Source of the DNA: Granulosicoccus sp.
GTDB taxonomy: Bacteria > Pseudomonadota > Gammaproteobacteria > Granulosicoccales > Granulosicoccaceae
Direction: 5' to 3'
Length of the DNA: 45,297 bases
Assembly (NCBI GenBank): GCA_020627685.1
Contig: JAHDGK010000004.1
Span: 121,667-166,963, forward strand
This document shows, one piece after another, positions 3,356-23,468 of the stretch (position 1 is its first letter; each line of letters begins with the position of its first letter). Below the pieces are notes generated by a model. It was not told the origin of the DNA. It saw only the letters and a list, made by a program, of their open reading frames with translations, and made no database searches. The translations under genes and the position numbers were made by a program.

Positions 3356-3381
3356 CCTCTGGCTGACGGAGGACAAACTCA

Positions 3382-3412
3382 GGCGGCGTTGAGAATAATG
3401 CTTAACGCCGCC
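3382..3412 (+). terminator. strong hairpin between the TRAP binding-protein and membrane genes
   Basis: GGCGGCGTT (3382-3390) pairs perfectly with AACGCCGCC (3404-3412) around a 13-base loop, 26 bases after the stop codon. Only TTT follows, so it looks like a partial terminator or an RNA-stabilising hairpin. It could give more binding protein than membrane subunits, as expected for periplasmic binding-protein systems (inference). Confidence 0.6.
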
Positions 3413-3456
3413 TTTGGCTCATGAATGTTTTCATTCCCTATTAGTTTTATACGCTC

Positions 3457-7486: not shown

Positions 7487-10400
7487 TTGCCGATCCAAAA
7501 GATTCTCGTCGCAAACCGTTCTGAAATCGCCATAAGAATTTTCCGTGCTGCTAACGAGCTCGGTATCAAAACGGTGGCTATCTGGGCCGAAGAAGACAAG
7601 CTAGCCCTGCATCGATTCAAGGCTGATGAAGCGTATCAAGTTGGATCAGGCGCTCATCTAGACAAAGCCATGGGGCCCATTGAGTCCTATTTGTCTATCG
7701 AGGAAGTCCTGCGAGTCGCAAAGCTCTCCGGTGCCGATGCTATCCACCCCGGCTATGGCCTGCTCTCAGAGAGTCCGGAATTTGTCGATGCGTGCGATGC
7801 AGCCGGCATTACGTTTATCGGTCCACGGGCAGACACCATGCGACGCCTGGGCAACAAAGTAGCGGCCAGGAATCTTGCTGTCGAGGCTGGCGTGCCAGTG
7901 GTACCTGCAACCGAACCACTGCCGGACGATCTCGACACCATCAAATCCATGGCTGCAGAAATCGGATACCCCATAATGCTCAAGGCGTCCTGGGGCGGCG
8001 GTGGACGCGGCATGCGTACCATTCGCAGTGAAGACGATCTGGCCAAAGAGGCCAACGAAGCCCGTCGCGAAGCAAGAGCCGCTTTCGGGAAAGACGAAAT
8101 TTATCTGGAAAAACTGGTAGAGCGTGCGCGACACGTTGAAGCGCAAATTCTCGGTGACAAGCACGGAAACGCAGTTCACCTTTTTGAACGAGATTGCACG
8201 GTACAACGTCGCAATCAAAAGGTGGTTGAACGCGCACCTGCCCCGTATTTAAACAATGAGCAACGAGCAGAATTAAGTGGCTATGCCTTAAAGATTGCTA
8301 ACGCAACGTCCTACCTAGGTGCAGGAACCGTGGAATTCCTGATGGACATGGACACAGGTGCGTTCTACTTCATTGAGGTCAACCCTCGCGTGCAAGTTGA
8401 GCATACGGTGACAGAGGAAGTCACTGGCATCGATATCATCAAAGCGCAGATTCATCTGGTTGAGGGTGCCGTCATCGGAACACCTGAATCAGGCGTTCCG
8501 GCTCAAAAAGATATCGCGCTGAATGGTCATGCCATGCAATGCCGCATCACAACCGAAGATCCTGAACAAAACTTCGTACCCGACTATGGCCGAATCACAG
8601 CCTATAGGGGTGCATCGGGCTTTGGAATCCGACTCGATGGTGGAACCGCCTACTCTGGTGCAGTCATCAATCGTTTTTATGATCCGCTGCTGGAGAAAGT
8701 CACGGCTTGGGCACCGACCTCCGATGAAGTCATTAAACGGATGGACCGTGCTCTGCGTGAATTCCGAATTCGTGGTGTTGCCACGAACTTAACGTTCCTC
8801 GAAAACGTTATCGGACATCCGGAGTTTCTCGACAACTCCTATACCACGCGTTTTATCGACACGACTCCAGAGTTGTTCGAGCAAGTCAAACGAAAAGACC
8901 GGGCAACAAAATTATTGCATTACATTGCTGATGTTTCTGTCAACGGGCACCCTGATGCTCGCGACAGAGCAAAGCCTCGCGAAGATGCACTGGCACCTCA
9001 GTCCCCGTGGATTGGCAAGCCGATACAACCGGGTACCAAAGATCGGCTTGACAGAGACGGCCCTGAGAAGTTTTCACAATGGTTACGGGAATCACCACAG
9101 GTGATGCTCACTGATACCACTATGCGTGATTCGCATCAGTCTTTGCTGGCAACTCGCATGCGAACACACGACATTGTTGGCGTCGCCGATGCCTACGCTC
9201 GCGGACTACCAGAATTACTGTCTTTAGAATGCTGGGGCGGCGCAACGTTCGATGTCAGCATGCGCTTCTTAACTGAAGACCCTTGGGAACGCTTAGAACA
9301 GATACGCGAACGTGCGCCGAATATTCTGCTGCAAATGCTCATTCGAGGAGCCAACGGTGTCGGGTATACAAACTACCCAGACAATGTTGTTCAACACTTC
9401 GTAAAACGCGCTGCGGCCACCGGTATCGATCTTTTCCGGGTATTCGATTGCTTTAACTGGATCGAGAATATGCGCGTTTGCATGGACGCCGTACTCGAAG
9501 AAAACAAGCTGTGTGAAGCGACCATTTGCTACACCGGCGATATGTTGGACGCCGCCCGTCCTAAATACCAGCTGAAGTATTACCTCGATTTAGCCAAAGA
9601 GTTGGAAAAAGCAGGCGCACATATTCTTTGCATCAAAGATATGGGCGGCTTGATGAAGCCAGCGGCTGCTACGCAGTTGTTTAAGGCTATGCGCGAAGAA
9701 GTCTCCCTGCCACTGCATTTCCACACACACGATACGTCAGGCATTTCGGCAGCAACCGTGTTAGCGGCTGTTGAAGCCGGTGTCGATGCCGTCGATGCAG
9801 CTATGGACGCTTTATCGGGCAACACATCGCAACCCTGCTTGGGTTCCATCGTCGCAGCACTTAAGGGCAGCGACCGAGACCCGAACCTAGACAGAGAAGC
9901 TATCGAAAAAATCTCCTTTTACTGGGAAAGTGTTAGACATCAGTACGCCGCATTTGAAAGCGATCTCAAAGGACCGGCATCTGAAGTCTATATGCACGAA
10001 ATGCCAGGTGGACAATTTACTAACTTAAAGGAACAAGCACGATCAATGGGCTTGGATTCTCGCTGGCATGAAGTTGCTCGCGCCTATAGTGATGTGAATG
10101 ATTTATTCGGCGACATTGTTAAAGTGACTCCGTCATCCAAAGTAGTGGGTGATCTTGCGCTCATGATGATCAGTCAGGATCTCACCATCAGTGATGTTGA
10201 AAACCCCGATAAAGATATCGCCTTCCCTGATTCAGTTGTATCAATGATGAGAGGCGAACTCAGCCAGGTTCCCGGTGGTTTTCCAAGCACGATTCAAAAC
10301 AAAGTGCTCAAGGGCGAAGCTCCCTTGGCGGAACGTGCCGGCGCCACACTTGCTCCAGCGAATCTTGACGCACTGCGTTCATCACTCAGTGAAGACCTAG

Positions 10401-10954
10401 ACCGCGAGATTAGCGAGAATCAACTGGCGTCGTACAACATGTACCCGAAAGTCTTTACAGACTTTATTGCGGCACAAGACACTTACGGCCCAACCAGCAC
10501 GCTACCAACTCCGGTCTACTTCTATGGTTTGAATGTGGGCGATGAAATTTTTATCGAAATAGAAAAAGGTAAAACACTGGTCGTCCGATGCTTAGCGTTT
10601 GGCGATGTAAACGACCAAGGCATGGTGCGCGTCTTCTTTGAGCTTAACGGCCAACCTCGTTCCATTGCTGTTCCAGATCGTCTGCATGGAGCCACAGGTG
10701 CTGCAACGCGTGCCAAAGCGGATCCAGACTTACCGGGACATGTTGGCGCACCAATGCCAGGTGTTGTATCAACTGTTAATGTCAGTCTGGGCCAAAGCGT
10801 TCAAACGGGCGATGTACTGCTTTCCATTGAAGCCATGAAAATGGAGACGGCTATCTACGCAGAAGTTGACGGCGTGATTGAAGAGATGCTCGTCAAAGCC
10901 GGTGATCAAATTGACGCCAAAGACTTGATGGTGCGTATTGAGGGTTCCTCCTAA
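7487..10954 (+). CDS. pyc: pyruvate carboxylase, single-chain
   Basis: This 1155-residue enzyme makes oxaloacetate from pyruvate, bicarbonate and ATP. Its length is normal for the alpha4 single-chain form. Domain order is biotin carboxylase (1-455; KILVANRSEIAIRIFRAANE at the start, ATP-grasp loop KASWGGGGRGMR, EVNPRVQVEHTVTEEVTG), then the carboxyltransferase barrel (about 535-810; MLTDTTMRDSHQSLLATRMR, IKDMGGLMKP, FHTHDTSG with metal-ligand histidines). The tetramerisation/PC-binding region and a biotinyl domain follow, with K1118 in EAMKMET. The start is TTG, supported by AGGAG 9 bases upstream and by alignment to the conserved N-terminus. The enzyme supplies anaplerotic carbon, fitting the adjacent 2-oxoacid importer and the PEP synthase further along. 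Confidence 0.97.
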   Translation: MPIQKILVANRSEIAIRIFRAANELGIKTVAIWAEEDKLALHRFKADEAYQVGSGAHLDKAMGPIESYLSIEEVLRVAKLSGADAIHPGYGLLSESPEFVDACDAAGITFIGPRADTMRRLGNKVAARNLAVEAGVPVVPATEPLPDDLDTIKSMAAEIGYPIMLKASWGGGGRGMRTIRSEDDLAKEANEARREARAAFGKDEIYLEKLVERARHVEAQILGDKHGNAVHLFERDCTVQRRNQKVVERAPAPYLNNEQRAELSGYALKIANATSYLGAGTVEFLMDMDTGAFYFIEVNPRVQVEHTVTEEVTGIDIIKAQIHLVEGAVIGTPESGVPAQKDIALNGHAMQCRITTEDPEQNFVPDYGRITAYRGASGFGIRLDGGTAYSGAVINRFYDPLLEKVTAWAPTSDEVIKRMDRALREFRIRGVATNLTFLENVIGHPEFLDNSYTTRFIDTTPELFEQVKRKDRATKLLHYIADVSVNGHPDARDRAKPREDALAPQSPWIGKPIQPGTKDRLDRDGPEKFSQWLRESPQVMLTDTTMRDSHQSLLATRMRTHDIVGVADAYARGLPELLSLECWGGATFDVSMRFLTEDPWERLEQIRERAPNILLQMLIRGANGVGYTNYPDNVVQHFVKRAAATGIDLFRVFDCFNWIENMRVCMDAVLEENKLCEATICYTGDMLDAARPKYQLKYYLDLAKELEKAGAHILCIKDMGGLMKPAAATQLFKAMREEVSLPLHFHTHDTSGISAATVLAAVEAGVDAVDAAMDALSGNTSQPCLGSIVAALKGSDRDPNLDREAIEKISFYWESVRHQYAAFESDLKGPASEVYMHEMPGGQFTNLKEQARSMGLDSRWHEVARAYSDVNDLFGDIVKVTPSSKVVGDLALMMISQDLTISDVENPDKDIAFPDSVVSMMRGELSQVPGGFPSTIQNKVLKGEAPLAERAGATLAPANLDALRSSLSEDLDREISENQLASYNMYPKVFTDFIAAQDTYGPTSTLPTPVYFYGLNVGDEIFIEIEKGKTLVVRCLAFGDVNDQGMVRVFFELNGQPRSIAVPDRLHGATGAATRAKADPDLPGHVGAPMPGVVSTVNVSLGQSVQTGDVLLSIEAMKMETAIYAEVDGVIEEMLVKAGDQIDAKDLMVRIEGSS

Positions 10955-11038
10955 GCATCACGCTACGCACAGCTTCTACCAAAGCCTCTGGCTTACAGCG
11001 ATCACCCGAAATACAAACCCCTCTGTAAAAACTACATT

Positions 11039-11082
11039 GAGCGTTATATAGACTGTACTTTAGTATAGTTTATATAACGCTC
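11039..11082. repeat. 44-bp near-perfect palindrome between pyc and the GGDEF-EAL gene
   Basis: The left arm 11039-11059 and right arm 11062-11082 are 21 bases each with a 2-base centre. Nineteen of 21 pairs are Watson-Crick, including 12 outer pairs (GAGCGTTATATA with TATATAACGCTC). The two exceptions (11051 with 11070, 11055 with 11066) are G-T. They would be G-U wobbles in a plus-strand RNA, but C-A mismatches in a minus-strand RNA. It lies 85 bases after the pyc stop. No T-tract follows on the plus strand, so it is not a textbook terminator. It may be an RNA stability element, an operator, or a copy of a dispersed palindromic repeat. Confidence 0.75.
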
Positions 11083-11191
11083 TTGACGCCTCAGAAGGTA
11101 AATTAAGAGCCCCAACGGCCGATTGAAATATATGGCATGCATCGGCAGTTGAATCCTTTGATGTACGGGTTGTTAATTTAGGGTTTTCTAC

Positions 11192-13594
11192 TTGGGCTTT
11201 CTTACTTCTATTCGCAGTAGTCTACTGATCACTAGCTTCACGGCTATTGGACTTATACTGTGGCTGAGTGTCAGCTTCTGGTACACAGCCTACGTCGAAC
11301 GGCTAGATTCATCGCAACTGCTGGAAAGTATCGAAACAGAAGATTTACTGTTTGAAACTGCAAGAAACCTGTCCAGCCAACGATCATTCGTCCATGTGCT
11401 ACTTAGCGGCAGGTACGCTGCGCGCGAAGACGAACTCATCAAGTTGAAAGATGACATTGCAACCACACAAACTCAGTTTGAAAAAATTCGCAGAAATACG
11501 AGTCAGTCCCTGACCGATGATTCGCTAAGAGATCGTTTTACGTTTATCGACTCAGAGATCCGAGAGGTATTTAGAGACGTTGTAGCTACCTATTTAGATC
11601 TCCTTAGTAAAGAGGAAAAAATCCTAGCGCAGTCATCTGTGATGCTTATAGACCGGGATTCATCATTTCAGAATGAAATATTCTCGCAATATTCAGCTCT
11701 AATTGAATCAACACAACTCCTGAGATGGGGTACGCACTTTGTACCACGACACAATGCCCTGGACATTGATCATCTTCAGGAATTAAGAATAGCCAACTGG
11801 CATTTCGGTGAGGCAATTGCCCGTGAAGCATCGCTTATCAGCGGTGTGCTTGCATCTGGAATGCGTTTAAGCCAAGCAGAACAAAAGAAAATTGAGTCAT
11901 TACACATTGAGACTCTCGCAACCTGGAGAACACTTCAGCAATACCGAACCAAACGTGGTTCGATACCCGAGCTCTCGAATGCAATCACCGAAATAGAAGA
12001 AACATACTTCGGCGATTTTGTAGACCTGCTAAATATTATTCTCTCTGCAGAAGATCCGCGACAAAGAAGTCCAATGACTCTGGGCCATTGGTTATCAGTA
12101 GAAAAGCGCACCACACAACTACTCGATCAACTGGATTCCTTGAATAGCGATGAAATTCGGAGTGTCGCTATGAAAGTTGAAGAGCGCGCAATACGAAACC
12201 TGCTGATAGATACCGCAGTCGTTCTGATTTGTTTATTAATCGGTGCTGGGGTTATCGGTATCCTAAGAAAGATACGCCATCTGGCTACTCATGATGACCT
12301 GACAGGACTACCCAATCGAATCTATTTCGATAGCTTGTTGGATGAACAAATAGAATCATCACAAGGACAGCCAGTCGCTGTGCTATTCATTGATCTAGAC
12401 GGATTCAAACACGTCAACGACACACTAGGCCACGAAATCGGCGATAAGCTGCTTAGGCGTGTCGCTAAACGGATGACGAATAGCATCGCTAAACGCGGCA
12501 TCGTATCGCGGCATGGTGGAGATGAGTTTTCGGTGCTCATACACGAGTATGCAGAACGGGATACCGTATTTTATATCGCTAAAATGCTGGTTGAAGCATT
12601 TGATGATGACTTCAATGTCGAGGGTTTCAGCATCAGCATCGGCGCCAGCATCGGCATTAGTTTCTACCCTGAAGATGCAAAGTCTGCTCTTGAATTAAAA
12701 AGAAACGCGGACTTTGCTATGTATTTTGCTAAGTCTCAAGGGCGCGGCCGCATCTATGAGTACGATGAGGAGATAGCCTCTGAATACAAGAAAAGATTGG
12801 AGATTAAAGACGATCTAAAAACCGCCATCGCAGAAAATCAGTTCGAGTTAGCCTATCAACCTCAGGTGGGGATCAAAGCGCAAGCGGTGGAAGGATTAGA
12901 AGCGTTAATTCGCTGGCAGCATCCCGAAAAAGGCTTTATTCCACCTGACGTGTTCATTTCCATTGCGGAAGAATCTGGTCAGATTCAAGAAATTGGAGAC
13001 TGGGTACTCGACGAAGCTTGCCGACAAATGGCCAGCTGGCACAAATCGGGACTTGCGAATATGCAAATCGCCGTGAACGTTAGCGCAATGCAATTCATGC
13101 GACCTGACTTCATAAAATACGTAGAAGAGACGTGCAAAAAGCATGAGCTCAATCCAGCCTTTCTTGAACTGGAAATCACTGAAAGTGTTTTAGTAACTGA
13201 TGTGCAACTGGTTATCGACACCTGTCACCGTCTGCAGGCAATGAATATCAAAGTAGCTATTGATGATTTTGGAACCGGTTACTCTTCTCTCAGTTATTTG
13301 CAAGATCTACCTGTCGATACGCTAAAAATAGATCGAGCATTTGTCTCCGGTTTAGATGACATCACCAGTAAATCCGTGGCTCGTACCATTGTTACGCTGG
13401 CGCAATCATTCGGCCTCGAAACCGTCGCAGAGGGTGTTGAAACCGATGGGCAAGCGGATATGATTGCCGAACTAGGATGTGACTATATCCAGGGCTACTA
13501 CTATTCCAAGCCGGTGTCTTCAGAGCAACTACCTAAGCAGGTTGCCTCTATCAACGAGTACTGCCAGCAGAACTCGAGCAGTCGCGCAGCGTAA
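11192..13594 (+). CDS. membrane GGDEF-EAL cyclic-di-GMP enzyme
   Basis: The protein has 800 residues. A membrane helix at about 10-30 and another at about 333-355 enclose a largely helical periplasmic sensor region of about 300 residues, which I cannot assign to a family. The GGDEF domain (about 365-525) keeps the full motif at 442-446 (RHGGDEF) and DDLTGLPNR. The EAL domain (about 545-790) keeps EAL at 570-572, the NVSAMQF asparagine, EITES and DDFGTGYSSLSYL, so both activities look intact. The start is TTG, with AGGG 8 bases upstream; the next good start would remove the first helix. It stands alone, converging on the CoA-transferase gene. The signal sensed is unknown. Confidence 0.92.
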   Translation: MGFLTSIRSSLLITSFTAIGLILWLSVSFWYTAYVERLDSSQLLESIETEDLLFETARNLSSQRSFVHVLLSGRYAAREDELIKLKDDIATTQTQFEKIRRNTSQSLTDDSLRDRFTFIDSEIREVFRDVVATYLDLLSKEEKILAQSSVMLIDRDSSFQNEIFSQYSALIESTQLLRWGTHFVPRHNALDIDHLQELRIANWHFGEAIAREASLISGVLASGMRLSQAEQKKIESLHIETLATWRTLQQYRTKRGSIPELSNAITEIEETYFGDFVDLLNIILSAEDPRQRSPMTLGHWLSVEKRTTQLLDQLDSLNSDEIRSVAMKVEERAIRNLLIDTAVVLICLLIGAGVIGILRKIRHLATHDDLTGLPNRIYFDSLLDEQIESSQGQPVAVLFIDLDGFKHVNDTLGHEIGDKLLRRVAKRMTNSIAKRGIVSRHGGDEFSVLIHEYAERDTVFYIAKMLVEAFDDDFNVEGFSISIGASIGISFYPEDAKSALELKRNADFAMYFAKSQGRGRIYEYDEEIASEYKKRLEIKDDLKTAIAENQFELAYQPQVGIKAQAVEGLEALIRWQHPEKGFIPPDVFISIAEESGQIQEIGDWVLDEACRQMASWHKSGLANMQIAVNVSAMQFMRPDFIKYVEETCKKHELNPAFLELEITESVLVTDVQLVIDTCHRLQAMNIKVAIDDFGTGYSSLSYLQDLPVDTLKIDRAFVSGLDDITSKSVARTIVTLAQSFGLETVAEGVETDGQADMIAELGCDYIQGYYYSKPVSSEQLPKQVASINEYCQQNSSSRAA

Positions 13595-23438: not shown

Positions 23439-23468
23439 GTGAAGCCTTACGTATTCGTAGGGCTTCAC
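23439..23468. terminator. shared bidirectional terminator between the peroxiredoxin gene and ppsR
   Basis: GTGAAGCCTTACG (23439-23451) pairs with CGTAGGGCTTCAC (23456-23468), 13 pairs with one T-G wobble and a TATT loop. It sits between two convergent genes. T-rich sequence occurs on both sides (GTGTTTA on the plus strand, CTTAAAAATT on the minus strand). Confidence 0.65.

Follow-up and report, generated by a model that had tools for sequence, protein, structure and literature searches.

In E. coli, bicyclomycin-sensitive (that is, Rho-dependent) transcripts are trimmed to hairpins without a run of U, according to the description of Dar and Sorek (2018) in passages of PMC13289151, and a C-rich, G-poor stretch lies downstream of the mapped ends. 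The same passages present REP elements as stabilisers of 3′ ends. The 3′ exonucleases are described, in a section of PMC8297930, as running until they meet stable stem-loops, and about a fifth of the 3′ ends of P. aeruginosa are estimated there to be Rho-independent. In mycobacteria, I-shaped terminators are, in an excerpt of PMC12288462, U-less hairpins located within 50 bp of the stop codon. Our searches found no literature combining Granulosicoccus with transcription termination.

The locus analysed here belongs to a Granulosicoccus sp. genome of 4.93 Mb in 117 contigs and lies in a stretch of 45,297 nucleotides (the window). A 44-bp palindrome occupies positions 11039-11082, between two genes of the plus strand. 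It begins 84 nt past the stop codon of pyc, which encodes a pyruvate carboxylase listed with 1155 aa (7487-10954; Pfam PYC_OADA, Biotin_carb_N, CPSase_L_D2, Biotin_carb_C, HMGL-like, and Biotin_lipoyl), and a further 109 nt separate its end from the TTG at 11192, the first start listed for an ORF on the same strand encoding a GGDEF-EAL protein listed with 800 aa (11192-13594; Pfam GGDEF and EAL). An inverted-repeat search and a check of each pair confirmed the architecture given in the first-pass annotation, with 21-nt arms (left, 11039-11059; right, 11062-11082), a 2-nt centre, and 19 Watson-Crick pairs out of 21. The two remaining positions, 13 and 17 of the arms, are G.T pairs (11051/11070 and 11055/11066), with both Gs in the left arm and both Ts in the right arm, and they become G-U in the plus-strand RNA and A-C in the minus-strand RNA, as had been noted.

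About 20 consecutive pairs can form in RNA. The predicted fold has an energy of -27.0 kcal/mol (z -9.06) for plus-strand RNA and of -18.9 kcal/mol (z -7.33) for minus-strand RNA, and none of the 200 shuffles folded as well in either case, so the fold is far beyond chance and is better on the plus strand than on the minus strand. With a score of 15, the palindrome is the best of the window, where the next one scores 11, and no palindrome reached the cut-off of 10 in five copies of the window generated by a first-order Markov model. The tail that follows it, TTGACGCC, contains no T-tract, as previously pointed out, and a terminator scan of 10800-11400 gave none. A canonical intrinsic terminator consists of a GC-rich hairpin followed by a U-tract; the pyc hairpin lacks the T-tract and has a GC content of 32%. 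In Rfam 15, the palindrome had no match above the gathering score, and the only match of the window was a tRNA at 142-215. Together with the comparisons described below, these features suggest that the palindrome probably acts as a T-less 3′-end RNA hairpin of the pyc mRNA, marking and protecting the end of the message.

The described systems resemble this locus to different degrees. As in the E. coli U-less, Rho-dependent 3′ ends of PMC13289151, at least as those passages present them, a stable hairpin without a U-tract lies at the 3′ end of a gene, adjoining a C-rich, G-poor stretch. In contrast, the C-rich stretch of pyc is upstream of the hairpin, the stem is AT-rich, and the end is here a prediction from sequence. 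The features expected of a U-less 3′-end hairpin of a Rho-dependent transcript that were found are the stable hairpin past the stop codon, the absence of a strong U-tract, and an encoded Rho; a C-rich, G-poor stretch downstream of the end was not found, being located upstream instead. The pyc hairpin shares with the mycobacterial I-shaped terminators, as outlined in that excerpt of PMC12288462, the position of a poly-U-less hairpin past a stop codon, but its distance of 84 nt exceeds the 50 bp given there, and it is AT-rich. Like REP elements, as mentioned in PMC13289151, it is proposed to block 3′ exonucleases; unlike REP elements, which are repeated with a shared consensus, it is single-copy.

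Many copies in both orientations would have indicated a dispersed DNA repeat, an alternative raised in the first-pass annotation, and the palindrome was found at one place in the 4.93 Mb of its own genome when up to three mismatches were allowed (a single site that reads on both strands, being a palindrome). At the same tolerance, 26 other congeners gave no copy, nor did the remaining 368 genomes of a set of 369 from the class, and IMG/VR contained no exact match. A dispersed palindromic repeat of the REP type is ruled out by this single copy. That the palindrome is the relic of a mobile element, such as a miniature transposon or a repeat palindrome, would fit an inverted repeat that is long, nearly perfect, and located between genes. 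Nevertheless, none of these searches gave a second copy, the sole phage match was 25 nt outside the palindrome, no plasmid match was found, and no flanking duplication is seen in the sequence. The copy searches largely refute a mobile relic, which we regard as extremely improbable.

To place the palindrome among similar structures, stems were surveyed in 0.97 Mb of the 4.93 Mb of its own genome and in 1.6 Mb of the 7.78 Mb of a congener assembled as a single contig (G023), with genes called as longest ORFs for this analysis and with G.T and A.C mismatches at equal cost, so that neither strand was favoured. At a score of at least 10, the own genome has, per kb, 2.03 hairpins between convergent genes, 0.57 / 0.74 between codirectional genes, 0.10 between divergent genes, and 0.026 in coding sequence; the corresponding values in G023 are 0.93, 0.51 / 0.53, 0.21, and 0.033. 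Long hairpins are therefore concentrated at gene 3′ ends in the sampled parts of both genomes, less sharply in G023. The hairpin lies within 60 nt of a stop codon in 38/47 cases in the own genome and in 47/57 in G023. Calling a hairpin T-less when no seven positions at its 3′ side contain five Ts, and using the strand of the nearest stop for convergent hairpins, 25 of the 47 gene-3′-end hairpins of the own genome are T-less and 22 have a T-tract, and 56 of 68 are T-less in G023. When a T-tract on either strand is counted, it is present in 24/47 and, in a smaller G023 sample, in 12/57. The pyc palindrome thus belongs to a class of gene-end hairpins, many of them T-less. It is ordinary in kind, a usual 3′-end signal built without a run of Ts, and many of the gene-end hairpins of this bacterial group would escape a terminator finder that relies on a T-tract.

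Within this class, the pyc hairpin has the second-highest score in the 0.97 Mb sampled and is the fifth most stable of the 47 gene-3′-end hairpins, with the second-lowest GC content (median 51%). Its distance from the stop codon is also long, the median being 26 nt, with at least 80 nt in 6/47. The strongest hairpin of the own-genome sample, C40:88736-88787 (L089:8736-8787), has 24 perfect pairs, a 4-nt loop, and a fold of -47 kcal/mol, and sits between convergent gene ends, 15 and 16 nt from the stops.

The orientation of the imperfect pairs had been taken in the first-pass annotation as a sign of selection for an RNA hairpin. The RNA reading is plausible, but the two G-U pairs by themselves are weak evidence, since a transition mismatch is G-U on a given strand half of the time and two out of two are expected about once in four. 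Across the class, codirectional intergenic hairpins with a score of at least 10 are biased towards G-U in the sense RNA (26:6, p 0.0005; 25:6 without the pyc hairpin), as are those with a score of at least 9 (35:7). At a score of at least 10, neither convergent hairpins (9:12) nor those in coding sequence (10:14) show this bias. Codirectional hairpins with a T-tract show it without exception at that score (13:0, and 11:0 when the five outer pairs are removed); a T-rich arm may favour G.T and inflate the value for these hairpins, yet the bias persists without the outer pairs. For the T-less codirectional hairpins, counted with the pyc hairpin included, the ratio is 13:6 at a score of at least 10 (p 0.17; with the five outer pairs excluded, 11:6, p 0.33) and 20:7 at a score of at least 9 (p 0.019; 17:7 without the five outer pairs, p 0.064). 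The class-wide argument is therefore strong across codirectional hairpins, and it extends weakly, with uncertainty, to the T-less ones.

The 3′ ends of pyc were compared in 30 loci, namely the own locus and those of 29 relatives (24 congeners, four members of the family, and one of the class), weaker pyc matches without a locus being left out. The measure was the best 60-nt fold within 150 nt past the pyc stop, expressed as z against 60 shuffles. A z of -2 or lower was reached in 14/20 relatives in which no co-directional ORF lies within 120 nt and in 1/9 in which one does (Fisher p 0.005), and a z of -3 or lower in 9/20 and 0/9, respectively (p 0.027), these p-values being indicative only, given the common descent of the relatives and a 120-nt threshold chosen once the first results had been seen. 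The value of z also shifts with the shuffles, -2 or lower being found in 14/29 relatives with 40 shuffles and 15/29 with 60. The one exception among the nine is G014, whose listed ORF overlaps the hairpin and may be spurious, and the group without a close ORF includes G033, whose downstream stretch ends at 349 nt. In 6/20 relatives of that group, z did not reach -2. A hairpin thus tends to occur where pyc plausibly ends the transcript and to be absent where the next gene follows at once.

The sequences of these post-pyc hairpins differ among lineages, although a hairpin can be common to sister species (G008 and G019; G012, G018, and G024). The comparison for compensatory changes proposed in the earlier annotation gave a mixed picture, since two stem pairs are changed on both sides between G012 and G024 with pairing kept, and the same two pairs are broken in G018. 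The clustering of such hairpins at gene 3′ ends, and the frequent presence of a dissimilar hairpin after the pyc of relatives, support a role of the palindrome as RNA where pyc ends. Since the same gene end carries varied hairpins across the relatives, these loci could serve as a small natural series for asking whether the function resides in the hairpin or in the rut-like sequence.

How the end would be produced is a separate matter. The spacer between the pyc stop codon and the palindrome (10955-11038, plus strand) contains 29 C and 11 G and is a candidate Rho-loading, rut-like stretch. Its C/G over 84 nt ranks 2 of 829 gene ends; among 826 gene ends, the rank is 47 over 50 nt, 25 over 60, 6 over 70, 2 over 84, 9 over 100, and 16 over 120, so that its extreme position depends partly on the length chosen. 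For the 100 nt upstream of the hairpin, (C-G)/(C+G) ranks first of 104 3′-end hairpins. The spacer also satisfies a rut-like rule that requires spaced Cs and a C/G above 2, as do 31/826 gene ends. This rule was modelled on RhoTermPredict (PMC6407284), which in addition looks for a pause element or a GC-rich stem. Rho is encoded in the own genome (TIGR00767 at 709 bits, cut-off 509.45). Downstream of the hairpin, no C-richness was found, the skew over 100 nt being -0.18, with 94/104 hairpins at least as C-skewed. As a possible class signature, an excess of C downstream was weak among the 47 T-less hairpins of G023 (p 0.04) and not seen among those of the own genome.

From these features, a possible course of events can be outlined. 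The palindrome would form the final structured part of the pyc transcript, a hairpin without a U-tract; Rho would load on the C-rich, G-poor stretch just past the pyc stop codon, and transcription would stop at the hairpin or beyond. The tail would then be trimmed by 3′-to-5′ exonucleases, which the stable hairpin would halt, setting and protecting the end of the mRNA. Transcription across the site, the action of Rho, the trimming, and the protection of the pyc mRNA are all steps that we infer. While the 3′-end hairpin itself is probable, Rho-dependent termination and trimming as the specific route is a tentative proposal, with slightly less than even odds. The distance of 84 nt, the AT-rich stem, the downstream region that is not C-rich, the broken pairs of G018, and the six relatives without a z of -2 or lower count against this reading, as do the non-significant G-U bias of T-less hairpins at a score of at least 10 and the dependence of the C/G rank on length. 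A broader generalisation would be that many transcript ends in the genus are set by U-less, fast-evolving hairpins, replaced at the pyc end by unrelated sequences that still form a hairpin, and that here Rho loads upstream, so that one element both pauses the polymerase and fixes the trimmed end; this idea is speculative and, taken as a whole, rather unlikely.

Among the other explanations, a U-less intrinsic terminator, in which the hairpin alone would stop and release the RNA polymerase without Rho, differs from the 3′-end hairpin proposed here in mechanism only. The stability of the hairpin and the location of its class at gene 3′ ends, mostly within 60 nt of the stop (38/47 and 47/57), are compatible with it, as are the mycobacterial I-shaped terminators without poly-U, within what the excerpt of PMC12288462 describes. 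Nevertheless, the stem is AT-rich, hairpins with a T-tract also exist in the own genome (22/47), and, judging by its title, a paper cited in PMC12288462 finds intrinsic termination by the mycobacterial polymerase to depend on a U-tract. We consider this mechanism unlikely, although it deserves some weight. A duplex cut by RNase III, splitting a pyc/GGDEF-EAL cotranscript, seems very unlikely. The approximately 20 consecutive pairs of the RNA would suit it, and RNase III can cleave long duplexes.

The remaining alternatives relate the palindrome to the downstream gene. As a DNA operator, it would be bound by a dimeric protein that regulates the GGDEF-EAL gene, and its near-perfect symmetry, its AT-rich core, and its position 109 nt before the listed start would suit this role. 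However, a simple consensus scan of 10800-11400 found no sigma-70-like promoter, no second whole site was found in the own genome at up to three mismatches, and the half-site GCGTTATATA, searched in the window with one mismatch, gave four matches, of which two are the palindrome's own arms, where 2.2 are expected. The own genome also has few such palindromes between divergent genes, and an operator is improbable. The first-pass annotation had left open whether the hairpin belonged to the pyc 3′ end or to the leader of the GGDEF-EAL gene, where it could act as an attenuator or a stability hairpin of that mRNA, 109 nt upstream and on the same strand. The company of the class and the hairpins after the pyc of relatives argue for the former, while the latter found no support and is quite improbable. 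No promoter-like site was found upstream within 10800-11400, and among the matches listed, 11/12 near-full-length GGDEF-EAL relatives with a locus have no hairpin with a score of at least 9 in the 300 nt upstream, the remaining one (L008) having such a hairpin, though a weaker one; hairpins recur after pyc instead. This leader test is weak, as the relatives are 31-37% identical and of uncertain orthology. The own-genome C110 paralogue, which has no locus, was left out. A further contig search gave two distant GGDEF-EAL relatives, 35-36% identical, which were not used in the test. Among the matches listed in 57 genomes, near-full-length relatives of the GGDEF-EAL gene are at most 37% identical, and the closest one in the own genome is the 37% paralogue on C110.

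Palindromes in other settings were also recorded. In the sampled part of G023, nine with a score of at least 10 lie in divergent regions, including a perfect 17-pair palindrome between divergent genes (L082:2461-2496; C1:3242461-3242496); they may be operators and not RNA ends. The window itself contains two more hairpins near gene 3′ ends, at 3381-3413 and 23439-23468, each with one plus-strand G.T pair; the former is located 25 nt past a stop codon and the latter between convergent genes.
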